A DNA stretch of 64,000 nucleotides. Source: Pontiella desulfatans (GTDB lineage: Bacteria; Verrucomicrobiota; Kiritimatiellia; Kiritimatiellales; Pontiellaceae). This document shows, piece after piece, positions 9,382 to 24,882 of the stretch. The stretch covers positions 124,001 through 188,000 of the forward strand of contig NZ_CAAHFG010000002.1 in NCBI RefSeq assembly GCF_900890425.1, given 5' to 3'. The translations under genes and the position numbers were made by a program. Position 1 is the stretch's first letter. Each line of letters opens with the position of its first letter. The notes below the pieces were generated by a model that worked only from the letters and a program-made list of their open reading frames with translations, had not been told where the DNA came from and searched no databases.

Positions 9382-10046
9382 TAGTTGTCCCACCCGATTG
9401 CCGAATACTTAAAAACCGACCGGCGCGAAACCATCGGTTCGCCATCGTCGTTCACGCCATCGCTGTCGATACTGACGCCTGCCACCAGCCATTTGCTGGA
9501 ATCCGCTCCGGTCATTCCCGCCGGCGCGGCGGTCTTGCCAACGTTCAACGAGGCCAGCACACCGGCCTGGCTCCACACAAAGTTAGCGATGAATTCCTCA
9601 TAGGTGTATTCAATGCCGCCGATGCCGATGGTCTTGTATCCCTCGGCCTTCTTAGCATCGCGGCTTGACTCGGTCAGGAAGCCGGAGGAAACCAGCCGCT
9701 CGTCATCGATCGGCACCTCGCGCCAATCCGAACGGCTCGACTGCCGGGTCTGGCCATCGGTATGGGTGCTGATGGTGCTGCCGGAACCGAACGGATCTTC
9801 GGGCGAATAGTTGAGCGTCACCAGCATAATGCCGGTGGCCTGCGTCGGCGTAATCGTGGCGCTCTGCAGCTTCATCTCGGTATCTTCGTACGATGAATAG
9901 GCATCCGGAATGAAATCCTCGGCCTTTTCGCTCACGATCTGAAACTTGTCGGTCAGTTTCCAGGTCTTGCCCTCGCGCCGCTTGACGGGGTAGCCCTTCA
10001 CCTGTACCGGGGTCTGAAAATTGGTCTCTGCTGACAAAAACATCAT
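9381..10046 (-). CDS. Tail protein downstream of tape measure
   Basis: A 221-residue, beta-rich protein (YPVKRREGKTWKLTDKFQIV, then TITPTQATGIMLVTLNYSPEDP). It directly follows the tape-measure gene, the place of distal tail or tail-tip proteins in siphophages. No signal peptide or catalytic motif is visible. Structural role inferred from position and composition only. Confidence 0.5.
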   Translation of the reverse strand: MMFLSAETNFQTPVQVKGYPVKRREGKTWKLTDKFQIVSEKAEDFIPDAYSSYEDTEMKLQSATITPTQATGIMLVTLNYSPEDPFGSGSTISTHTDGQTRQSSRSDWREVPIDDERLVSSGFLTESSRDAKKAEGYKTIGIGGIEYTYEEFIANFVWSQAGVLASLNVGKTAAPAGMTGADSSKWLVAGVSIDSDGVNDDGEPMVSRRSVFKYSAIGWDN

Positions 10047-10051
10047 GCCTC

Positions 10052-11674
10052 CTAAATCGCAAAGCTGAACGAGCCACGTTCCTGGATGCCTTCAACCACT
10101 TCCTGCAAAAGCTCGTTCGTCTTTTTCTGTTCGGTAACCTGGTCGCGGCTGTTCTGCGTCTTTTCCTGATCGCGCTGTTCGGAGCCGGTTGCACTGCCGG
10201 AAAGCGCGTGGTTGATCCGCAGTGCGCCGGTCATCATTCCCCGGATTGGCTCCGCCATCTTGGCAATATTTGCCATGGCGTTTTCGGTCATGGCAAAATC
10301 ACCCGCCATCTTGCTGGATTGGGTAAGCTCTGCTATGTCGGGAATTTCGAAATCGAACATTTTACGGCCTGCCGAAAATAGGTTTTCGAATTGATCGGGC
10401 AGAATTGCCTTCATCCGATCGCGCATGCGTTCGGCGAAAATCTCGCCAAAGGTATCGCCTTCGGTGGCGGCATCCTGGTGCAGGATCCGGCGGTCGGCTT
10501 CTTCGATGGCTCGGCTGAATTTAAGCACCCCTGCGTCGTCGCCCAATGCTTCGGCAATTGATTTTTGCGCCTCGAAAATCTTCTTTGATACCCTCGCGCC
10601 GAAGCTGAATTTTTTATCCAGCGCCTCCGCAAAATCATAGGCGGCAATGCTCGTCATGATGCCGGCCAACACCACATTGATTGCCCCGGCGGCGGTGGCG
10701 AAGTTAGCCACCAGCAACGCCAACCCGCGCGTGATCGGAATCAGCAGCCCCGATTTGAATGCAACGGTGATGCCCAGGAACGCAATGCCGGCGTTTCTCA
10801 CCGCATCGCGTTCGGCGTCGGTCATGGCGTTGAAGCCTCCGACAATATGGTTGATGGCATTCACCACGTTGGTGGCGAGGTTGACGAACCCGGTCATGAT
10901 TGCAGTGGTGGCGCCGCTTTCCCGCAAAGCCACCATGCTGGAGGTCAGGCCGGCAACGCTGTCGGATACGCTGTTGAGGTTGATGCCCTCGATCAGCAGT
11001 CCGCGGAACGAGCCTTTCAGCCGCGTGGTTTCATCGACGAATCGGGCGGCGGCGGCGGCCTGGTCGGCATCAAAGACAATCCCGAGCCGGTCGGCTTCGG
11101 CCTTCATCTCCTTCAAACCCTTGGCGCCGCCAGAAAGCATAGGCAGCAACTGGATGCCGTTTCGGCCAAACACCTTCAAAGCCAGCGCTGATTTTAACGA
11201 TGCGTCCTTGATGTCGGCCAAGCGCGTAAGGATCAGATCAAACCTCGCGCCGGGGTCGAGGTTTGCCAGATCCTCGAAGCTCAATCCAAGGTCGCCAAGC
11301 GCGTCAGTATAGGTCTTGGTGCCGCGCTTGGCCTCATAGAGTGCCGTACCCATCGCCTTGAGGCTTTTCTCCATGCCGTCAATGCTACCACCTGAAAGGG
11401 CGGCGGCGTGGGCATAGCGGGAAAGCTCGTCTGTCGCAATGCCGGTGCGCTTCGACATCTTGTCCATGGCATCGCCGGCCTTGGCAACAGAGTTTATTGC
11501 AGCGGTTCCCATGGCGGCCAGCGCTAGGCCGGCCACCGCCGCCATTTTGCCAATCTTCGCCAGCGGGGCACCGACGTTTTTCTTGAACTTGTTCACGCTT
11601 CGCTCAAGGTCGCGCACGGCGTCGCGCGCTTCCTTCGAGTTTAGGCTGATTTTTCCTTTAAGATGCGGAGCCAT
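10052..11674 (-). CDS. Tail tape-measure protein
   Basis: A 540-residue protein (start MAPHLKGKISLNSKE at 11674, overlapping the end of the preceding small ORF). The N-terminal ~150 residues match tape-measure proteins: KEARDAVRDLERSVNKF, then AMDKMSKRTGIATDELSRYAHAAALSGGS and DPGARFDLILTRLADI. Hydrophobic segments occur near 45-65 and 260-340. It sets tail length, and its modest size implies a short siphophage tail. It follows the tail chaperone pair exactly as in other siphophages. Confidence 0.9.
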   Translation of the reverse strand: MAPHLKGKISLNSKEARDAVRDLERSVNKFKKNVGAPLAKIGKMAAVAGLALAAMGTAAINSVAKAGDAMDKMSKRTGIATDELSRYAHAAALSGGSIDGMEKSLKAMGTALYEAKRGTKTYTDALGDLGLSFEDLANLDPGARFDLILTRLADIKDASLKSALALKVFGRNGIQLLPMLSGGAKGLKEMKAEADRLGIVFDADQAAAAARFVDETTRLKGSFRGLLIEGINLNSVSDSVAGLTSSMVALRESGATTAIMTGFVNLATNVVNAINHIVGGFNAMTDAERDAVRNAGIAFLGITVAFKSGLLIPITRGLALLVANFATAAGAINVVLAGIMTSIAAYDFAEALDKKFSFGARVSKKIFEAQKSIAEALGDDAGVLKFSRAIEEADRRILHQDAATEGDTFGEIFAERMRDRMKAILPDQFENLFSAGRKMFDFEIPDIAELTQSSKMAGDFAMTENAMANIAKMAEPIRGMMTGALRINHALSGSATGSEQRDQEKTQNSRDQVTEQKKTNELLQEVVEGIQERGSFSFAI

Positions 11675-15529: not shown

Positions 15530-16351
15530 GCTTTGCTCCTGTTCGTTGCGATACGATAAGTACCGCTTCATGAATTCATCCATCTTGTCGCCATACTTGG
15601 CCATGGCTTCCAGCACCTCCGGCGAATTTTCGAGCAGGTCGAAAACGGCGGGGTTCTGGTCGAGAAAATCGGTAATCAATCCGGCTGGCGTTTCCTGGGC
15701 AAAGGCGGAAAACAGGCCATCGTTGGCGGCGGGTTCGTCCACGCAATCGCAGGCATGGAGCTTTTCGCATTCGACAAAGATTTCCTCGGAAAGCTCCTCG
15801 GCTTCATCCTCGGAAAGTCGGCTTCCATCTTCGCGGGTGTACCAGATTTCACACCCATACATACTTTCCCGAATGTGCCGATATGCTTTTTCACCATCCT
15901 GGGTTCTTCGATATGATTTACCCGGCGTAAACACGATCGAGGTGCCGAACATGTCGGCCTCGTTTTCCGCCATCGAAAGAATATAGGAATACAGATCGCC
16001 GTTGGGCGTCTCCTTGGCGCTGTTGCTTAGAAACAGATCCGCATAGCAGCAGTCAACCTTTGATCCATCGTCGCGGATAGTGGTGCCTTTGCTGAAATTC
16101 TTGAAGCGCCCGACAAAGGTGCCGAGGGCCGAGCTGCACATGTTGGGGTGACCAAAGCGCGCCTTGAGTCCTTGCTTGGTCTCGGAACCTTGCTTAACAA
16201 GGGTATCGATAAATTCGGAGTCGAGATGGACGCCATGCCCTCTTGCTTCGCCAACGGAACAAACCTTGACGCCGGCAATGATTCCTTTTTCATGATCCAC
16301 CTCTGCGGGCTTGCTTTTTAAGTAGCCGGTATCAAACCATTTTTTACTCAT
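15059..16351 (-). CDS. Capsid maturation protease fused to scaffold
   Basis: A 430-residue protein starting MSKKWFDTGYLKSK; the ATG lies within the portal stop region (AATGAGTAA), the longer upstream frame being an artefact. Residues ~1-170 form the protease domain, with GHPNMCSSALGTFVGRFKNF containing the likely catalytic His and SMAENEADMFGTSIVF a possible Ser region. Residues ~275-380 are extremely Glu/Ser-rich and disordered, followed by a helical tail. This is a lambda C/Nu3-type arrangement: cleavage removes scaffold and trims the shell. The catalytic residues are inferred, not verified. Confidence 0.75.
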   Translation of the reverse strand: MSKKWFDTGYLKSKPAEVDHEKGIIAGVKVCSVGEARGHGVHLDSEFIDTLVKQGSETKQGLKARFGHPNMCSSALGTFVGRFKNFSKGTTIRDDGSKVDCCYADLFLSNSAKETPNGDLYSYILSMAENEADMFGTSIVFTPGKSYRRTQDGEKAYRHIRESMYGCEIWYTREDGSRLSEDEAEELSEEIFVECEKLHACDCVDEPAANDGLFSAFAQETPAGLITDFLDQNPAVFDLLENSPEVLEAMAKYGDKMDEFMKRYLSYRNEQEQSMSTENDTSAEVATEAEELEETQSTEEVEATEAVEVVEEETTSEEAEAEESEEAEPSEEPEAEESELSEAEPSRTIDPEEFARSVDEFGAEVSAAAFKAGGGYAEAKEAYYAAIAVENKALKAKVAELGEEGADPAEFGEDTGKKISMEEVISGKRK

Positions 16352-17798
16352 TGCCGTCTCCTTCTTCCTGCCCCTTGGTCTCTTGCCCTGGATCGCCAAT
16401 CGCAACGGAAACTTTGCGCTTTTCGATTTCGCGCTCTTCTTCTTCGAGTTCGCGGACAATCTTCCGCCAGTCGCCAAGGTTATATTTCTGACAAATGCGC
16501 TGGCGGCTCTGAATGCCACCGGCCACCGCTTTTAGTTCTGCTTCGATCTGGCTTTTGGGGTCGTACCAAGGCTGACCGGCGGGGATCCATTCCACTGCCC
16601 GCACCAATTCCCGCGCGTCGGTAATACCGGCGGCCTTCATCAGTTTCGCCACATCCGGCAACCGCGCCCATGCGGCCACCTTCCACGCGGTGTATTGATT
16701 CAGAAAACTTCTGATCGACTCGCGTTTCTGTCGGCAACTTTCCTCGTAGTCGTTGCGGTCGATGATCCGCGCAGAAAAAGAGGACTTCATCGAGTCATAG
16801 AACGTGTAGGGAATATCCAGCGCCAGCAGTCCGGCCCGAATCATCACTTCTGAAAAATCGAGGAAACCCGAGTTTGGCGTCTTGCTCTCGATGGTGTCCG
16901 CGCCTTCCCCAGGTTCCAGTCGCAGCAACTGAGGGCCATCCATGAAGTTGATTTCAGCTTCGCCCGCGTTCGCAGTGCCGGCACTCGCCGCCGTACCGAA
17001 CTCGTCGCTGCCGATGTCGCCTTCCTGCTCGCCATCATCATTGATGCCGGTATCCTCTTCATCCAGTTTTTGACTGATCGCGATGCCGAACAGCGCATGC
17101 AGTTTGATCTTTAGCAGGGTGAAGTCCCAGTTCTCATAGAGGTCTTGAAAGGTGGTGATGGCCGTCGTCAGAGGACTGATCCCGCGCGTCTGATCGAACC
17201 GTTGGAAGTAACCATCAAAGATACAGTACTTCGCGTCCACCATGTGCGAGTAGACCAGATCACGATCAACGCGGTTGGTGATTGCATATTTCTTGACCGC
17301 GCCATATTGATCCAGCACCAGCCCATTGTCATTGAGCGTTTTCGGTCGGTTTTTTTTCGGGAAAGTCGCCGTGGCCCCCGCGATGCGATCGCCCTCGATA
17401 AACTGCAGGTTTCCGGTCTTCAGCATAACCGCAAGGGCATCGCCATCCGTTGCGCGGTGCGATTCCCACAAACGCAGAGCCCGACGACGGGAATGCCGCT
17501 TGCAAATGTCAAAGTTTTCCTTGCGGCCATGCCATTCGAAAAGCTGGTTGAGCTTTGCGTCCAGCGCATCGTTTCCTGTGCGGATTAACACATTGAAATC
17601 AGTCACATAATCCAAATGCTTGCGAACCATCCACGCCACCAGCGAAAGATTGCGCATCTGGTCGTGAACGGTGCCGGTCAGCTTGCGACGATCGCGCGGC
17701 TTTAGCATTGCGTCTTCGCTCATTGTCCGAGTGGCTGGGGCTTTGCGTTGCCCCTTGCTTTGGATCGCGTTATATTCCAGGCTGGTTTTTTTAGACAT
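16344..17798 (-). CDS. Portal protein (lambda gpB-like)
   Basis: A 484-residue protein of the lambda-type portal family: RDRRKLTGTVHDQMRNLSLVAWMVRKHLDYVTDFN near the N-terminus, ATDGDALAVML, then KEYxx-type FEWHGRKENFDICKR and a long helical C-terminus rich in Glu/Lys. It forms the dodecameric DNA channel at the capsid vertex. It follows gpW and precedes the protease, as in lambda. Confidence 0.85.
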   Translation of the reverse strand: MSKKTSLEYNAIQSKGQRKAPATRTMSEDAMLKPRDRRKLTGTVHDQMRNLSLVAWMVRKHLDYVTDFNVLIRTGNDALDAKLNQLFEWHGRKENFDICKRHSRRRALRLWESHRATDGDALAVMLKTGNLQFIEGDRIAGATATFPKKNRPKTLNDNGLVLDQYGAVKKYAITNRVDRDLVYSHMVDAKYCIFDGYFQRFDQTRGISPLTTAITTFQDLYENWDFTLLKIKLHALFGIAISQKLDEEDTGINDDGEQEGDIGSDEFGTAASAGTANAGEAEINFMDGPQLLRLEPGEGADTIESKTPNSGFLDFSEVMIRAGLLALDIPYTFYDSMKSSFSARIIDRNDYEESCRQKRESIRSFLNQYTAWKVAAWARLPDVAKLMKAAGITDARELVRAVEWIPAGQPWYDPKSQIEAELKAVAGGIQSRQRICQKYNLGDWRKIVRELEEEEREIEKRKVSVAIGDPGQETKGQEEGDGNE

Positions 17799-18150: not shown

Positions 18151-18570
18151 GTGAAAGAATTCTGGAATACAACCGAATGCGGAACATGGCTGTTTAACCT
18201 AAAAATCGAAGACGAAGTTGGCCGGCTAACGGCAACGCGAATTACAGACGATGGATTTTCCTCGTTTGATGCCAAGCCCATTGAAGGCGAAAACGAAAAA
18301 GTGATCATTGCCGCCGCTGAGGTTGCTGCCAAGGAAAAGGCTGGTACAGAAATTTTGCTGGTCACGATTAATGCGGCAAATCAAAAACCATACGCCATCC
18401 TAAAAAATGGCAAGATCGCAGCAAATCCTGTACTAGCAGCCAGCGAAGACGAGGCACTCGATCAAGCCTACGAACTGCTTCAACCAGGCCTACCACAAAA
18501 GGCATCGCACGCCCCCGGAGATTCTCCGGACTGGCAAAGCGCAATTACTGTCGCAAGAATAACGAGCTAG
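18151..18570 (+). CDS. Orphan plus-strand phage gene (moron candidate)
   Basis: A 139-residue protein starting at GTG 18151 (VKEFWNTTECGTWLFNLKIE); AGGGGG lies four bases before it, better than the upstream ATG. It is an alpha/beta protein with an N-terminal beta region (VGRLTATRITDDGFSSFDA) and helices later. It has its own promoter, opposes the flanking late genes and overlaps the end of the next gene tail to tail. Such an island is typical of genes expressed in the lysogen (defence, exclusion or fitness), but no family was recognised. Confidence 0.6.
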   Translation: MKEFWNTTECGTWLFNLKIEDEVGRLTATRITDDGFSSFDAKPIEGENEKVIIAAAEVAAKEKAGTEILLVTINAANQKPYAILKNGKIAANPVLAASEDEALDQAYELLQPGLPQKASHAPGDSPDWQSAITVARITS

Positions 18571-19028
18571 TACGGCATCAGCCCCGTCTTGCTACCCAGA
18601 TTCACCAGCTCGCACTTGCGCCGAAGCGCGTGCCGCTCAAACAGCAAAAACCAGATATGCAGCATGTCGTTGCTGAAGCGCAGGGGATCGGCGTTGCCAC
18701 TGCCATAGAACGTATTGGCCGAGCCCTTGGGATAGTCCATCGAACAGCCGACAAACGAAATTTCGTCCGGTTCGAGCTCGCCGAGGATCCAATACGCGGC
18801 ATTGAAAAACATGGTGGCCCCGATGCCGAGCTCCTGCCGGCCAAAGCGTTCGCGCTGGATGTCGCCGTCGTATTCTTGGTAGCTGATCGGCTCCACATGC
18901 GCCGGCAGTGTACGCACAAAACCCATGTACTTTTTCAGCCACGACGAATAGCTCTTTTCGGTCGAATATTCCATGTGCTTCAGCCGAATCTTTTCACGCA
19001 ACAACCCCAATGCCTTAGCTTCATTCAT
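18567..19028 (-). CDS. Chimera: integron-type recombinase N-terminus joined to DUF115-like C-terminus
   Basis: A 153-residue ORF with a good GAGGTGAT Shine-Dalgarno before ATG 19028. Residues ~1-40 (LREKIRLKHMEYSTEKSY then SSWLKKYMGFVR) match the SAM-like N-terminal domain of integron-type tyrosine recombinases (compare IntI1 [21 protein letters not shown]). From ~45 on (NAAYWILGELEPDEISFVGC, ADPLRF, ELVNLGSKTGLMPY) it resembles the C-terminal half of the DUF115-like protein at 6923-7606. Neither half is a complete enzyme. It lies just beyond the broken end of the cassette array and is probably a recombination product, expressed or decaying. Confidence 0.6.
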   Translation of the reverse strand: MNEAKALGLLREKIRLKHMEYSTEKSYSSWLKKYMGFVRTLPAHVEPISYQEYDGDIQRERFGRQELGIGATMFFNAAYWILGELEPDEISFVGCSMDYPKGSANTFYGSGNADPLRFSNDMLHIWFLLFERHALRRKCELVNLGSKTGLMPY

Positions 19029-19052
19029 GATAATCACCTCGGTTTAATACAC

Positions 19053-19080
19053 GACACATGTCGCTCAATCATTGTTCGAT
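19053..19080 (-). repeat. Half attC-like site at the array end
   Basis: On the minus strand ATCGAAC (one mismatch to RYYYAAC) is followed by ...ATTGAGCGACATGTG, closely like the left arm of the other sites (TGAGCGG). The right half is missing and the sequence runs directly into the ribosome-binding site of the chimeric ORF. It marks a deletion or recombination junction. Confidence 0.5.
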
Positions 19081-19238
19081 TTACGGATCTCATCCATGCT
19101 ATGCGCCCATTTAATTGCCTCACCTAGTTTAAGCCTGAGTTCTTCAGCCGCCTTCAGCGTGAATTTTTCAGTCCCGTGGCGAGAAACGATCCCGATAGGG
19201 AACTGAGCGTCATATCTTTTTGTAACGTCTATATTCAT
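19065..19238 (-). CDS. Cassette ORF, 57 residues
   Basis: Starts MNIDVTKRYDAQFPIG at 19238; GGAGG lies 5 bases upstream and only a few bases after the right box GTTCGAT of the preceding attC-like site, as in gene cassettes. The longer frame from 19313 would run through the recombination site and is rejected. The protein is a small alpha/beta fold with a helix FTLKAAEELRLKLGEAIKWA. Function unknown. Confidence 0.6.
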   Translation of the reverse strand: MNIDVTKRYDAQFPIGIVSRHGTEKFTLKAAEELRLKLGEAIKWAHSMDEIRKSNND

Positions 19239-19249
19239 TTTAACCTCCA

Positions 19250-19337
19250 ATCGAACCAGAACATTGAGCGTACTGTGAAAACGCCTGATTCCTTGTTTGT
19301 AGCTTGAGCGCACAGCCGCTCATGTTAATCGTTGGAT
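19250..19337 (-). repeat. attC-like site alpha (88 nt)
   Basis: Left box ATCCAAC (perfect RYYYAAC), right box GTTCGAT (near GTTRRRY). Arms AACATGAGCG-G-CTGTG and CACAG-TA-CGCTCAATGTT pair with a 1-versus-2 base bulge, mimicking the extrahelical base of integron attC sites. It follows the stop codon of the 77-residue ORF by two bases. Confidence 0.7.
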
Positions 19338-19570
19338 TAATCGTCGTAATCTGGATTTTTATCCATCCAGCGTTGAGCTGCGGCAGCCATGACCGCAGTG
19401 TTTTCTACATATTGCGCGAGGCGACTTTCGACCTGCTTGTTGTATTCCAGCATTTGTTCTTTCATTTCATCCCGTCCCTTTTTCGATGCTAGGTGACAGA
19501 GAAAAGCTCCAACACAAACACCAACCGAAAACATGATTCCAGCGGCAAACGCATTCAGTACATTAAACAT
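19337..19570 (-). CDS. Cassette ORF, 77-residue membrane protein
   Basis: MFNVLNAFAAGIMFSVGVCVGAFLCHL forms one membrane helix, followed by a charged, probably coiled C-terminus (KKGRDEMKEQMLEYNKQVESRL). AAGGAG precedes the ATG, about 25 bases after the attC right box GTTGGAT. The stop codon abuts the next attC left box. Function unknown; small membrane proteins are common integron cassette products. Confidence 0.6.
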   Translation of the reverse strand: MFNVLNAFAAGIMFSVGVCVGAFLCHLASKKGRDEMKEQMLEYNKQVESRLAQYVENTAVMAAAAQRWMDKNPDYDD

Positions 19571-19599
19571 TTTTCATTCTCCTTATGTTTTTAATAAAA

Positions 19600-19687
19600 A
19601 TCCAACCAGTTGCTAGAGCGCGACGCGGGCCGACGCTCGTTTTTAATGCAGCGTTACTTTCCCGCGCCGCTCACCATTTCGTTAGCC
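19600..19687 (-). repeat. attC-like site A (88 nt)
   Basis: Left box GGCTAAC contains the stop codon TAA of the 94-residue ORF; right box GTTGGAT fits GTTRRRY perfectly. Arms GAGCG-G-CGCGGG and CCCGCG-TCG-CGCTC pair with an asymmetric bulge. Same length and TGAGCGG motif as site alpha. Confidence 0.75.
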
Positions 19688-19966
19688 GTATGTATTCTTA
19701 ATCCACGTTTCCCAGTCAAAGCCGCAGTCGCAGACTTCTTGCGAGAGGTCACATTCAGGGCAATGCGGAAATTTGATTTCAACCTTTGTTCCAATCGGCA
19801 AATGTTTTGGGTCGATAGTCCAAGGTTCTTCTGTCGTGTCATCTTGCATATCTCCGTTGCAGAAACCCCAGAGCACAGGCTTAATTTCATCACCTGAGTC
19901 TCCGTTGTAGCAATCGGCTTTCACCTCAAACACGCAGTCATTTTGGAAGTATGTCGGTTCTTTCAT
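19682..19966 (-). CDS. Cassette ORF, 94-residue Cys-rich protein
   Basis: An acidic protein beginning MKEPTYFQNDCVFEVKADCY and ending with a CPECDLSQEVCDCGFDWE segment that could form a zinc-binding site. Its stop codon is embedded in the left box of attC-like site A, a hallmark of integron cassettes. AAAGGTG precedes the ATG, shortly after right box GTTAGCC. No family recognised. Confidence 0.6.
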   Translation of the reverse strand: MKEPTYFQNDCVFEVKADCYNGDSGDEIKPVLWGFCNGDMQDDTTEEPWTIDPKHLPIGTKVEIKFPHCPECDLSQEVCDCGFDWETWIKNTYG

Positions 19967-19991
19967 GTGTTCACCTTTCTGTTAATTATTC

Positions 19992-20078
19992 GGCTAACCA
20001 TGGGCTTGAGTTTACCCGGACAACGCCGGTTTTAAATTTCGAGTTTATTTCCCGGGCAACTCAGCCCGGTCGTTCGCC
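19992..20078 (-). repeat. attC-like site C (87 nt)
   Basis: Left box GGCGAAC, right box GTTAGCC. Arms GGGCTGAGTT-G-CCCGG and CCGGG-TA-AACTCAAGCCC pair over 14-15 positions with the same 1-versus-2 bulge as site alpha. It starts at the stop of the 69-residue ORF. Confidence 0.75.
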
Positions 20079-20287
20079 TAATCACGCGGGAGCCCAAGGT
20101 CTGCCCCGCAAACACGACATTCCATATCGCAATCATCAACCGACCAGCGGGACGTGTGCCCTCCGTTAAAAATACAGATAAGCCCCCCGAAGATCCGGCG
20201 AACAAGCGGCATCAGCCTACGCAATACCCCGCGCAATGCCCCGCGCAATGCCCCGCGCAGTTTCCAGAATTTGTGTCCATACTTCAT
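20078..20287 (-). CDS. Cassette ORF, 69 residues, basic repeat plus Cys motif
   Basis: The N-terminal third contains three near-identical RGALRGALRGVLR units encoded by a 12-bp tandem repeat. The C-terminal part has CIFNGGHTS...CDMECRVCGADLG, a likely zinc site resembling small DUF1660-type phage proteins. Its stop lies at the attC-like site C left box and GGAGAG precedes the ATG. Function unknown. Confidence 0.55.
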   Translation of the reverse strand: MKYGHKFWKLRGALRGALRGVLRRLMPLVRRIFGGLICIFNGGHTSRWSVDDCDMECRVCGADLGLPRD

Positions 20288-20317
20288 ATCACTCTCCGAT
20301 TTCCTTGCGAGGCTGTC

Positions 20318-20373
20318 CCGTAACGTTGGGCTGGGAAGGAATTAAACCGACCCAGCCGTAACAAACCTTAAAC
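20318..20373 (-). repeat. Degenerate attC-like palindrome D
   Basis: Hairpin GGCTGGG...CCCAGCC with a 15-nt loop lies between the sponge-like ORF stop and a GTTACGG right-box candidate. It lacks a good left box and is shorter than the 87-88-nt sites, so it may be a decayed site or an ordinary hairpin. Confidence 0.35.
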
Positions 20374-20778
20374 CGTGTGCGTCCCTTCAACGCCTCGCCG
20401 CATCCGCTCAATCGTTCGCTGTTGAAGCCAGTGTTGCGCCTCTTCGATGTGAGTCAGTGCACAGGCATTCGCCTTGCACGCATACGGCCCAGCCTGAAAC
20501 GAGCGCAGACGATCTGCAACGATTTCCAAAAGGACTTCTTGCGTAATCCCGTTCACTCCGATTTCTGGGATAGGGCCATTTTGGAATACAATTTCCACTC
20601 TCGTTTGTTCGTTCCGCTGGCCGTCTGTGGCGGATGGATTGAGTTGCATATCCATTCCATAGATTACATACAGATGGTTTGCACCTCCGGCACCCGGCGC
20701 GTCTTGAACCTCAATATCAAGAGTGTCGTTTGCCGGGTTTACTTTGTGTCCGTTCAGTTTTCTAACTGGTGTATTCAT
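20368..20778 (-). CDS. Acb2/Tad1-like cyclic-nucleotide sponge (anti-defence)
   Basis: A 136-residue protein from ATG 20778 (ACGGAG nine bases upstream). The C-terminal half has RVEIVFQNGPIPEIGVNGIT, then VADRLRSFQAGPYACKANAC, ALTHIEEAQHWL and RGVEGTHTV. As I recall the family, this pattern is that of the Acb2/Tad1 hairpin domain, whose members sequester CBASS cyclic nucleotides or Thoeris gcADPR. The N-terminal LDIEVQDAPGAGGANHLYVI region fits Tad1-type proteins. It would act in the host cytoplasm during infection. Here it lies in a cassette array, not the early operon. Ligand class unknown. Confidence 0.65.
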   Translation of the reverse strand: MNTPVRKLNGHKVNPANDTLDIEVQDAPGAGGANHLYVIYGMDMQLNPSATDGQRNEQTRVEIVFQNGPIPEIGVNGITQEVLLEIVADRLRSFQAGPYACKANACALTHIEEAQHWLQQRTIERMRRGVEGTHTV

Positions 20779-20823
20779 TGTGTTTTCTCCGTCCGGCTTT
20801 GTTGTCTTGCTGCGCCACCGGGA

Positions 20824-20894
20824 GCCCAACAAGAATTTAGAGCGTACGGCTTAACTCTTTCGCCACGCATCAATAGCCGCCTTTTTCGTTGGAT
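20824..20894 (-). repeat. Possible attC-like site D' (71 nt or partial)
   Basis: Right box GTTGGGC fits GTTRRRY perfectly. A perfect RYYYAAC left box (ATCCAAC, 20888-20894) occurs but lies inside the 45-residue ORF, and arm pairing is weak. It could be a site overlapped by the gene or a fused half site. Confidence 0.4.
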
Positions 20895-20988
20895 ATTGCT
20901 TCATCCCTTTTGAGGCACGGTCATAGGTTCCGACATTGCCACGGTTTTCGTGTTTCCCTCTCAGGTTGTGTATTTTTTCAAAAGCCAT
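20851..20988 (-). CDS. Cassette ORF, 45 residues
   Basis: A small basic protein MAFEKIHNLRGKHENRGNVG...AAIDAWRKS, starting 9 bases after the right box GTTCAAT of attC-like site B. No Shine-Dalgarno is obvious (TTTTAAGATT). The stop overlaps the start of site D'. The short leader and position match cassette organisation. Function unknown. Confidence 0.5.
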   Translation of the reverse strand: MAFEKIHNLRGKHENRGNVGTYDRASKGMKQYPTKKAAIDAWRKS

Positions 20989-20997
20989 AATCTTAAA

Positions 20998-21085
20998 ATT
21001 GAACCAGCGAGTAGAGTTCGACGCGGCACGACGCTCAAAATCCGATCAACGCCCATCGCCGCGCGTCTCACTCGTAACGTAAAAC
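20998..21085 (-). repeat. attC-like site B (88 nt)
   Basis: Left box GTTTTAC (one mismatch to RYYYAAC), right box GTTCAAT. Arms CGAGTGAG-ACGCGCGGC and GCCGCGTCGAACTCTACTCG pair imperfectly. It has exactly the same 88-nt length as sites alpha and A, and is the first site of the array. Confidence 0.6.
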
Positions 21086-21088
21086 TAA

Positions 21089-21140
21089 TGCGCGGGCAGG
21101 ACTCGAACCCGCCGACCTGATTGGCCTCTTCCTGCCGCGC
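21089..21140 (-). other. tRNA 3'-half-like sequence
   Basis: On the minus strand GCGGG-TTCGAGT-CCTGC forms a normal T-arm, followed by an acceptor-like CCGCGCA that can pair with GCGCGG about 50 bases upstream. The D-arm and a credible anticodon arm are missing, so this is not a complete tRNA. It may be a tRNA remnant, an old attachment target or a plain hairpin. Confidence 0.35.
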
Positions 21141-21147
21141 TTAAACA

Positions 21148-21699
21148 TTATTTCTTCGTCGCGCAATGGCAGCACGTGCCGACACCATCGGCATCCCACA
21201 TTGAAGCCAGGCGGCCACAGCCGCACTTGACCGCGCGCGCCTTAATTGGAACCTTCACGACCAGATGCTGACCGCATGCGCAGCAATAGCGGCAAAATAT
21301 GACGCCGTCAAAATTATGATCGGGCGTGGCCTGGTGCATACGCGGATCCCGGCGCGTCTCGCCCTCGAGCGCCTTGGCCGGATCGATGGCTTTGCCACAC
21401 GTGCAAGCCATCGGTAGGCACACCTTCGCGCCCGTGTTGCGGTAGGGCTTGAGGTTGCCGGCCAGCGCCTGCTTCAGCTGCGCCACGTTCCATGAATCGG
21501 AAAAGGCAATGCCTTGCTTGCGGCATTCATCGCGCAGCGCCTTCCGCTGGCCGCCGCTCCGAGGTGATGGTCGCTTGCCGTCCAGAGCCGCCTGCAGCTC
21601 CTTCGATCCCCAGCGCGTGGCATACTTGATCCCGCGCTCCTCACACTGCCGCTGAAGCAGTTGTTTCTTCGTCTGGTAGTTACCGCGTTTAACGCCCAT
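21148..21699 (-). CDS. Zinc-ribbon phage protein with SAP-like motifs
   Basis: A 183-residue protein from ATG 21699 (AGGAGCAAAACC upstream). Two similar helical units, KKQLLQRQCEERGIKYATRWGSKELQAALDG and KALRDECRKQGIAFSDSWNVAQLKQAL, look like SAP/HeH-type DNA-binding motifs. The C-terminal half has CTCGK, FCRYCCACG, CGCGRL and CCHC, implying two zinc ribbons. It overlaps the preceding small gene. It may bind DNA or RNA in late functions; a small-terminase role is possible but unsupported. Confidence 0.55.
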   Translation of the reverse strand: MGVKRGNYQTKKQLLQRQCEERGIKYATRWGSKELQAALDGKRPSPRSGGQRKALRDECRKQGIAFSDSWNVAQLKQALAGNLKPYRNTGAKVCLPMACTCGKAIDPAKALEGETRRDPRMHQATPDHNFDGVIFCRYCCACGQHLVVKVPIKARAVKCGCGRLASMWDADGVGTCCHCATKK

Positions 21700-22827: not shown

Positions 22828-24882
22828 TTAAATTTGAATTTTTTGCACTCGGGGCTTGCGCGCTTTTTTTGCCCGTCGCTTTACGGGGTCGGCCTGGCCA
22901 GCCCCGAGCAGGGCGGCGGCGGCAATACAGCCCTTGACGGCGTCGAGCAAATCGTTGCGCCCGTTCGGGGGCGTCCAGGTGTAGGAATCGACAATGTCGC
23001 CGCGCAACAACTGAAGCAGCTGCTGGCTGGCAATCTCGGCGCCCATGCGCTCATGCTTCAGCGGATCGTTGCCGAAAAGCGAAATGGATAGGGGAGCGCC
23101 GGCGAACAGTTTAAAGCCCTGCTGTGCATCCTTCTGCCAGCGGTCGCTGACATAGACGCACTCAAATCCGCGGTCATTCTTTTCGAGATGAACATCCTGC
23201 GCCCGCTTCATCACCTTGGCACCGCGCGCCGTCCGGTACTGCTTCGTCGGTCGGGATCTCGATGTCCACACCTGGAAGTTGAGCTTTCGCGAAAGCGCCT
23301 TGCAGGCCTTCGCCACGGTGTCGGTCATATAGTTGGCGTCGAACATGATCGCATTGAAAAAGATGCGGGTGCCGTCCTCGCGCACGAATTCGGTACTGTG
23401 CAGAAGTTCGCCCAGTTTCATCACACCTTGATAGACGGCCTGCTCCTCGGTCAGTCCCTGCTTGGCCGCAATGGCCTTCGACCATAGCCACTTTCGCCCA
23501 TCCGGATATTTGCCATAGTCGGCGATCCAGCCCGCGCGCTTGCTATCGAAACCAGCCGCCGCCCAGTTCAGGCCAAGATAGTTGACATCGATCATGGCCG
23601 TCAGATACTGCGCTTCGTTCGGTAGCTTACGCCGCCCGAGATGGTTCAAGGCATTGCGCACATCGTCGGCGGCGATCTTGTAGCTGTCGTTTTCCTCCCC
23701 GGGCGGCTCGTTTTGATACTCGGCAAGAAAAGCGGGCTCGCCGACTTTGTACAGCAGATGGAAAGCATGCTGAACGGCGGAAAGTTCCTCGCTGCTGTCG
23801 TAGAAATATTTACTCGCCACCTCGACGCCGGCATCCATGGCCTTGCGGTTGGATTTATAGAACGCATTGGCCTCGGCCATGTCGCCATTCAATTTGCAAC
23901 GTTGCCAAATTTCCTTGTAGGCATCCCACAGCGCCGAGTTTTCATATTCGTGCTTGCTGCCCTTGGCCTTGTTCTTCACGCCCCAGGCATAAACCAGCTT
24001 CGTGCGGTGGCCGCGCCACTCTGGATTATTCCCACGGTCAAGGAACCGATCGGCCAGGTCGCCTTTTTCGATCACTGTGCATGGCATCACTGCCGATATA
24101 ACCCGATCATGGCCGGCCAGTCCCATTACGTCGCCGCGAATAATCTTTTCCCGCGCCTCGCTCTGGTCGAAGCTCTTCGCGCTCTCCCGGGTTTGCGGAT
24201 CATCCAAAATAACGAAATCAGGCCTGATCTTCGCATCCATGTTTTTGTGATGCAGACCACGAACGCCGGCAGTCAATCCTTTAGCCTGGAGCACCGAGCC
24301 CCGCGCCAAGGTGTACTTGGTCTTCGGAACGGTGGGGAAGACTAGCCGCGCCGACTTCCATTGCATGTGCGTTGGCTCGCCGTTCACATGCTGGGATCCG
24401 CACCGCTGCACCCGACCTTCCAAATGCTCGACCGGCTTGCACACCTCGGGAAAGTCATCCTGCAACAGCTCGTTGTTTTCAAATTCCGTCGTGATGTCGG
24501 CAAGGATCGATTCCGCCGCTTTCTGATCCGAGCCGATCACCACCCCGAACCGGATATGGCCGAACAGGATTCCCCAGATTGCCGCACCCTCCGAAATCGA
24601 GGTCTTGCCAAAACCGCGCGGCATCGCAATCGCTGCCAGCCCGCCGTTCATCACCGCTGCCTCGATGCTCTTCACCGCCGCGATCTGGTCGTCGCAAAAT
24701 TCAAGGTAGAACGTCTGGCCTAAATAGGTGCGCAGAAACTTCAGCAGATTCTTTCGGCACGAATTTCGACGCCGAACATTCGCCGGCTTCGGGATCGTTC
24801 CAATGTTCTGAAGATCCTCGCGCTTCCTGGCGTTGTGCTTCGCCTGCCGGCTCATGCCATCAATTGTAATCGGCTCGGTCAT
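22828..24882 (-). CDS. terL: Terminase large subunit
   Basis: A 684-residue packaging ATPase-nuclease. Walker A is AIAMPRGFGKTSISEGAA (about residues 83-100), Walker B PDFVILDDPQT (about 225-235). The nuclease domain shows AMIDVNYLGLNW near 435 and IMFDANYMTD near 515, plausible metal-binding Asp positions. The C-terminus is very basic (KRRAKKARKPRVQ). Its size and the gpW/portal neighbours suggest the lambda gpA-like branch, but no small subunit was recognised next to it. Confidence 0.88.
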   Translation of the reverse strand: MTEPITIDGMSRQAKHNARKREDLQNIGTIPKPANVRRRNSCRKNLLKFLRTYLGQTFYLEFCDDQIAAVKSIEAAVMNGGLAAIAMPRGFGKTSISEGAAIWGILFGHIRFGVVIGSDQKAAESILADITTEFENNELLQDDFPEVCKPVEHLEGRVQRCGSQHVNGEPTHMQWKSARLVFPTVPKTKYTLARGSVLQAKGLTAGVRGLHHKNMDAKIRPDFVILDDPQTRESAKSFDQSEAREKIIRGDVMGLAGHDRVISAVMPCTVIEKGDLADRFLDRGNNPEWRGHRTKLVYAWGVKNKAKGSKHEYENSALWDAYKEIWQRCKLNGDMAEANAFYKSNRKAMDAGVEVASKYFYDSSEELSAVQHAFHLLYKVGEPAFLAEYQNEPPGEENDSYKIAADDVRNALNHLGRRKLPNEAQYLTAMIDVNYLGLNWAAAGFDSKRAGWIADYGKYPDGRKWLWSKAIAAKQGLTEEQAVYQGVMKLGELLHSTEFVREDGTRIFFNAIMFDANYMTDTVAKACKALSRKLNFQVWTSRSRPTKQYRTARGAKVMKRAQDVHLEKNDRGFECVYVSDRWQKDAQQGFKLFAGAPLSISLFGNDPLKHERMGAEIASQQLLQLLRGDIVDSYTWTPPNGRNDLLDAVKGCIAAAALLGAGQADPVKRRAKKARKPRVQKIQI

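Follow-up and report, generated by a model that had tools for sequence, protein, structure and literature searches.

A Tad1 gene in a reversed integron cassette array of a Pontiella desulfatans prophage, with related arrays in phage contigs

Integrons or CALINs were described in 21 phages by Qi et al. 2023 (PMC9892861), who suggested that phages may acquire anti-restriction genes via integrons, while sedentary chromosomal integrons have been presented as stores of defence genes in bacteria (Darracq 2025, cited in PMC13064858). The phage arrays analyzed here have attC arrays, integrases and methylase cassettes in common with those of Qi et al. 2023, and neither a Tad1/Tad2 cassette nor gene reversal is reported in its abstract, the opening of its section 3 with 3.1, or its section 3.4. 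As in the systems of Darracq 2025, integron arrays appear as pools in the phage–bacterium conflict; there the bacterium stores defence, whereas here the phage stores counter-defence, with its genes reversed. Unlike the known Tad1 proteins (CbTad1, CmTad1 and phiKZ gp184), the one described here is carried in an integron cassette. Phage integrons are therefore already known, and the reversed variant and the Tad1 cassette are new in the literature searched; neither Tad1 cassettes nor phage arrays of reversed polarity turned up there, but only open-licence literature was searched and absence is hence not proven.

The window, i.e. the whole 64 kb stretch of DNA that was analyzed, contains a prophage with a tRNA-Leu gene (116-204), a tyrosine integrase gene (310-1383) and late genes for tape measure, head, portal and terminase on the minus strand. 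The tad1 region is located between the terminase and portal genes, and every likely gene of the array lies on the minus strand (Table 1). No relative of the terminase was found in IMG/VR viral contigs or in 28 other genomes of the host's family, and consequently no empty site was available for comparison.

Table 1. Features of the tad1 cassette region and of one Tad2 cassette in a viral contig. R1 and R2 are the two attC covariance models described in the text; positions are those of the window unless a locus is named.
Feature	Position	Strand	Details
Portal protein	16344..17798	minus	phrog_21 E 2.4e-33; downstream flank of array
Integrase-like ORF	18567..19031	minus	154 aa; place and strand expected of intI
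attC	19250..19337	plus	R2 74.8 bits, E 8.8e-20
Cassette gene, unknown	19337..19570	minus	77 aa; coding score 14; no convincing family
attC	19600..19687	plus	R2 39.7 bits, E 2.3e-9
Cassette gene	19682..19966	minus	94 aa; phrog_24515 E 2e-13, phage family, function unknown
attC	19992..20078	plus	R2 82.0 bits, E 6.4e-22
ORF, may not be a gene	20078..20287	minus	69 aa; overlaps attC 20197-20331; no family found
attC, long loop	20197..20331	plus	R2 29.7 bits, E 2.2e-6; left bound of tad1 cassette
tad1 ORF	20368..20778	minus	136 aa; ATG at 20778, stop at 20368
Doubtful extra attC	20824..20894	plus	R1 E 0.16, R2 E 0.18 (5 kb, filters off)
Small ORF	20851..20988	minus	45 aa; coding score 7 (amino-acid make-up); upstream of tad1, same inter-attC space
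attC	20998..21085	plus	R2 33.2 bits, E 2e-7; right bound of array
Terminase large subunit	22828..24882	minus	phrog_38 E 4.3e-25; upstream flank of array, late operon
Tad2-like gene	L185:2163-2456	minus	E 4.4e-21, over cut-off; viral contig

A sequence-only reading of the locus had designated the central ORF as an Acb2/Tad1-like anti-defence sponge. The ORF held, and each of the motifs named was located in its product: FQNGPI at residue 65, GVNGIT at 74, ADRLRSFQAGP at 88, ALTHIEEAQHWL at 107 and RGVEGTH at 128. GGAG precedes the start codon, and comparison with the relative in L015 indicates purifying selection (dN 0.076, dS 1.48). Against solved structures, phmmer retrieved phiKZ gp184 (E 2e-22) and six sets of Tad1 chains (E 7e-21 to 8e-18), and a profile of 56 homologues matched solved Tad1 at E 2e-28. 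The AlphaFold2 model (pLDDT 86, pTM 0.77) has the Tad1 layout, and the structural comparison proposed in the earlier reading came out in favour of Tad1: the best 20 Foldseek matches in the PDB were all Tad1 (E 9e-11 to 2e-7), the next match having E 0.96, and VIA-align superposed the model on Tad1 with Z 12.7 and 4.1 A over 124 residues. The VIA-align rows below the Tad1 chains were two-helix look-alikes, among them T4 Vs.4 with cGAMP (Z 6.5), a match that we read as the shared hairpin only. The window protein is a Tad1 by sequence and predicted fold, with about 40% identity to CbTad1. The Acb2 part of the label was dropped, since the N-terminal half of the model carries strands ahead of its two long helices and the sequence match goes to Tad1; with reference to the Acb2 layout given in a review (PMC12043709), only the C-terminal hairpin is common to the two families.

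Of the tools that gave no support, Pfam PF24729 (Acb2/Tad1 hairpin) scored the window protein at 15.2 bits, under its curated cut-off of 27. This shortfall was not counted against the Tad1 identity because all six other Tad1 homologues examined fail the cut-off too, phiKZ gp184 (orf184), named as Tad1 in the same review, being without any match. PADLOC, run on six proteins from the array and its flank with Tad1 among them, likewise returned no match. phiKZ gp184 differs from the window protein by an extra N-terminal stretch of about 100 aa; its gene (L254:259-951) is annotated as a structural protein, though a solved chain exists. Among the 56 homologues N104 and R121 are fully invariant and F94 nearly so, and we take these to be the counterparts of the CbTad1 ligand-binding residues. 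Hexamer formation and the binding of gcADPR or cyclic oligonucleotides, i.e. of the Thoeris and CBASS signalling nucleotides which the sequence-only reading had assigned to the protein, can only be inferred from the family, as binding data are lacking. Tad1 matches occur in 119 of 50,697 phage records, all below 60% identity, and relatives are encoded in 179 viral-contig stretches, 80 of which were kept.

The carriage of the gene in an exchangeable cassette had been taken for granted in that reading. Two covariance models were built to examine it. R1 rests on a six-site alignment of four window sites and two host integron sites, in which 11 of 20 pairs are altered on both sides. In order to avoid circularity, R2 was built from bacterial sites only, namely 20 attC sites from host-genus integrons and none from the window. 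Run over the whole window, R2 gave five matches up to E 5, all of them within 19250-21085 and on the plus strand. As tad1 sits between two of these sites, the cassette claim holds, and with five R2 sites and the compensatory pairs the array qualifies as a CALIN, which requires at least two attC sites that have outer boxes, arms that pair and unpaired bases. At 19992-20078 the site matches the attC of the host integron itself with 83.75% identity over 80 bp, and another host attC with 90.2% over 82 bp.

Of the two sites bounding tad1, the left one ends with the crossover box GTTGGGC (20325-20331), separated from the tad1 stop by 36 nt, and was missed by R1 and by an R2 run over 5 kb with filters off. 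The right one has R'' ATTGAAC and R' GTAAAAC; its crossover triplet is GTA, not GTT, so that this site is perhaps dead and the tad1 cassette may be stuck. The doubtful site between them has perfect outer boxes (GCCCAAC ... GTTGGAT) and poor arms. It lies about 45 nt before the tad1 start, which is the spacing of other tad1 cassettes, and it is the sole perfect-box pair in 19000-21200, where 0.145 is expected per shuffle. A hairpin at 20324-20365 was rejected as an attC; its box order is wrong and it looks more like a terminator. In the two cassettes nearest the portal gene the genes run into their sites, the final base of the attC box being the first of the stop codon of the 77 aa gene, and the stop codon of the 94 aa gene falling inside the box at 19681-19687.

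No complete integron was found in the prophage, there being no functional intI beside the array and just an ORF resembling an N-terminal fragment. The first 46 aa of this ORF resemble an integrase SAM-like domain (PF13495, E 1.6e-4, under cut-off; 29% over 28 aa to the host IntI), the remainder is unlike it, and TIGR02249 (integron integrase) gave no match there. Recombination of the window sites by IntI has no assay behind it and is indicated only by junction footprints in other phages. The host genome encodes an IntI (409 bits, over the TIGR02249 cut-off) elsewhere than at the prophage array, together with 39 attC sites by R1, and R1 sites occur in 24 of 28 genomes of the host genus, host included. 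A second host integron (L013 ~9586-10484; G000:C1:1467546-1468486) has its integrase split over two frames, and at L128:6135-6473, beside other attC sites, residues 1-113 of the host IntI recur with 100% identity. With regard to the defences that a Tad1 would counter, a SMODS cyclase was not found in the host genome and is present in 2 of 28 genus genomes; ThsB-type TIR domains also occur in 2 of the 28, the host being one of them with three places, though membership in Thoeris has not been established.

An attC site is asymmetric, with extra unpaired bases on one arm. In classic class 1 integron cassettes the side with the extra bases faces the gene. In the window all five attC sites are on the plus strand and the array genes, tad1 included, are on the minus strand; the genes hence run against the attC polarity (anti). 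In the integrons of the host genus, the attC strand agrees with the longest ORF (same) in 48 of 56 cassettes, with 8 anti and four further cassettes without an ORF left out, whereas in phage contigs 59 of 62 distinct cassettes are anti and three are same. The phage count was drawn from 58 viral loci, with 37 ORF-less spaces and six duplicates set aside, and its 62 cassettes come from 28 loci (contigs) in 26 clusters. The main host-genus and phage counts rest on two different gene callers (Fisher 6.6e-21); with one caller the value is 7.7e-7, the host-genus set then comprising just seven same and one anti. These Fisher values are rough, because loci of one clan are not independent.

A wider sample was obtained with a DNA pattern for one attC class, which matched 47 viral and 32 bacterial loci; a second pattern, derived from host-type sites, found no match in viral contigs. 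When genes were called from amino-acid make-up, 46 of the 52 viral sites were anti, five same and one unclear; two of the five are shorter readings of sites counted as anti and two share one contig. Bacterial contigs with the same attC pattern were mixed, 23 anti against 12 same (Fisher, phage against all matched bacterial contigs, 2.2e-4), and 16 of the 23 derive from one Propionivibrio MAG (L220, L228, L230 and L242), in which the contig of L220 and L228 carries a phage tail protein gene. A first crude count with genes called by length only (pattern set 60 anti and 32 same; second Tad1 set 10 and 9) had scored known reversed arrays as same and was discarded in favour of the amino-acid-based calling. 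Among the phages of Qi et al. 2023, TJE1 has canonical polarity at all three sites counted, and MW202573 has one site reversed. The reversed gene is the usual state in the sampled phage contigs and not in the host-genus integrons; the geometry of intI with reversed cassettes is shown in three groups of phage contigs.

Cassette carriage of Tad1 recurs beyond the window. Nine of 89 distinct viral Tad1 flanks hold 11 strict attC sites, all anti to tad1, where shuffles gave an expectation of 2.6; the other 80 flanks are without a strict site, so that most phage Tad1 loci lack attC. An earlier, looser scan had given 21 raw matches against 6-13 in shuffles, and stricter settings were used later; its matches at L027, L029, L061, L076 and L089 were judged by pairing pattern to be chance and left out. 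At L070, tad1 is alone in its cassette, with one attC 41 nt before its start and another 30 nt past its stop, in an array of about ten sites. The nearest relative of the window Tad1 (86% identity, L014/L015) adjoins an attC as well, and in a tree of 56 Tad1s the window protein is sister to that of L014. The cassette label needs five changes on this tree, at least three of them by well-supported branches; the cassette state was thus gained or lost three times or more. Near-identical Tad1 genes also occur in contigs that are otherwise unlike, sharing little beyond the gene and pieces of attC.

Integrases were identified in viral loci L141 and L174, with 51% and 49% identity to the host IntI. A scan with the L141 integrase gave seven loci, five at 100%, L250 at 68% and L251 at 62%; L251 shows no array in the contig DNA examined. 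Five viral contigs (L245-L249, L245 being the contig of L141) share an open intI (L245 7938-8954) and differ in array content. In L245, L250 and L174 the cassette genes share the strand of intI, while the attC sites lying upstream of the integrase gene are directed away from it (six of seven sites in L250); this arrangement of intI and attC is the classic one, but with reversed genes. The place and strand of the integrase-like ORF in the window are those of these phage intI genes, a resemblance that is no more than suggestive.

The contig pair L245 and L248 provides the footprint of an exchange. The two share 5,126 bp at 99.9% and 1,335 bp, including intI, at 100%; the interval between the shared parts measures 2,762 bp in L245, where it includes Tad1, and 369 bp in L248. 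The common DNA on the attI side breaks off at TTCGAATTTAAG^TT, after which GTTGGCC follows in L245, GTTAAGC in L248 and GTTAGAC in L249, and the far-side junction of the variable block is G^TTAGCA. Both L245/L248 junctions are thus integron crossover points (G^TT). Gain or loss of the Tad1 block by integron recombination in phages is supported by this one pair, and on the attI side by the third contig, without any experiment. To that extent there is support for the proposal of the earlier reading that phages trade anti-defence genes through integron recombination; for the window's own tad1 cassette no exchange was seen in this prophage. The variable block with Tad1 also holds a DHH phosphoesterase gene (L245:5499-6311), which could act on nucleotide signals, and an ORF next to attI in L249 (136-486) seems to us to encode a PTPS of the QueD type, which may serve DNA base modification; we take it for the one PTPS of the Pfam scan described next.

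In a Pfam scan of 44 phage cassette proteins, N6/N4 methylases accounted for five and DHH phosphoesterases for two, with one each of PTPS, Mom, RNA ligase and a Tad2-like protein, and most were without a known family. The Tad2 gene lies reversed between attC sites at 2060-2127 and 2457-2514 of its locus. Because most of these proteins belong to no known family, a cassette scan would be a way to unknown anti-defence genes.

The explanation that we consider probable is that of a Tad1 sponge in a reversed array captured by the prophage, with cassettes exchanged in related phages. In this view, an integron cassette array was taken into the prophage between terminase and portal and would be read with the late genes; the Tad1 sponge would hold gcADPR (the Thoeris signal) and cyclic oligonucleotides (the CBASS signals), and with the signals sequestered the suicide effectors of the host would not be switched on. 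In phages with their own intI, the integrase runs with the operon, the array growing upstream of intI, and Tad1 cassettes would come and go by attI x attC recombination. Only cassettes with reversed genes would be read by the phage transcript, because intI is co-directed with the operon and the array lies upstream of it; this selective reason is inferred.

Two rivals were weighed against this explanation. In one, tad1 is a plain moron that by chance sits near old attC sites, the array being the dead remnant of a host integron that the prophage caught, and Tad1 was brought in by ordinary phage recombination. It draws on the many Tad1 loci that lack attC, the broken crossover triplet of the last window site (20998-21085), an integrase-like ORF that is a fragment at best, and the want of any relative showing exchange at the window locus. 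Against it stand the bracketing of tad1 by two attC sites found with R2, the attC abutting the nearest Tad1 relative, the cassettes with G^TT junctions that Tad1 forms in phages, and the single, non-canonical direction in which all likely array genes are turned. We regard this rival as improbable. Still less credence can be given to the other, in which the attC-like hairpins of phages are RNA terminators or processing sites that came to resemble attC by convergence. The hairpins do lie just past stop codons and nearly all in one sense relative to the genes, and Qi et al. 2023 (PMC9892861) note a possible weak terminator activity of attC sites. However, the hairpins match attC in their outer boxes, the spacing of their arms and their unpaired bases; one of the window sites shows 84-90% identity to attC DNA of the host; a phage intI stands beside such arrays in three contig groups, with junctions at G^TT; and IntI1 recombined five of six phage sites in the assay of Qi et al. 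2023 (PMC9892861).

Beyond the favoured account of a captured array with exchange in related phages, a bolder reading can be put forward, which in our estimation is as apt to fail as to hold. Phages would keep a cassette pool of their own, with genes against attC, rich in counter-defence (Tad1, Tad2, methylases, Mom and RNA ligase), moved by a co-transcribed phage integrase and cut off from the bacterial pools. A phage cassette in a bacterial attI would then be silent because it is antisense to the integron promoter, and, if the reading is true, the same silence would befall any bacterial defence cassette that a phage captured.

Overall, the observation that phages carry integron pieces becomes a testable system, in which sponges and anti-restriction genes would be captured and lost as modules by site-specific recombination. 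Reversed polarity offers a simple marker by which phage data can be searched for such arrays, and it may explain a separation of phage and bacterial cassette pools; integron slots could be a quick route for phages to trade counter-defence tools.
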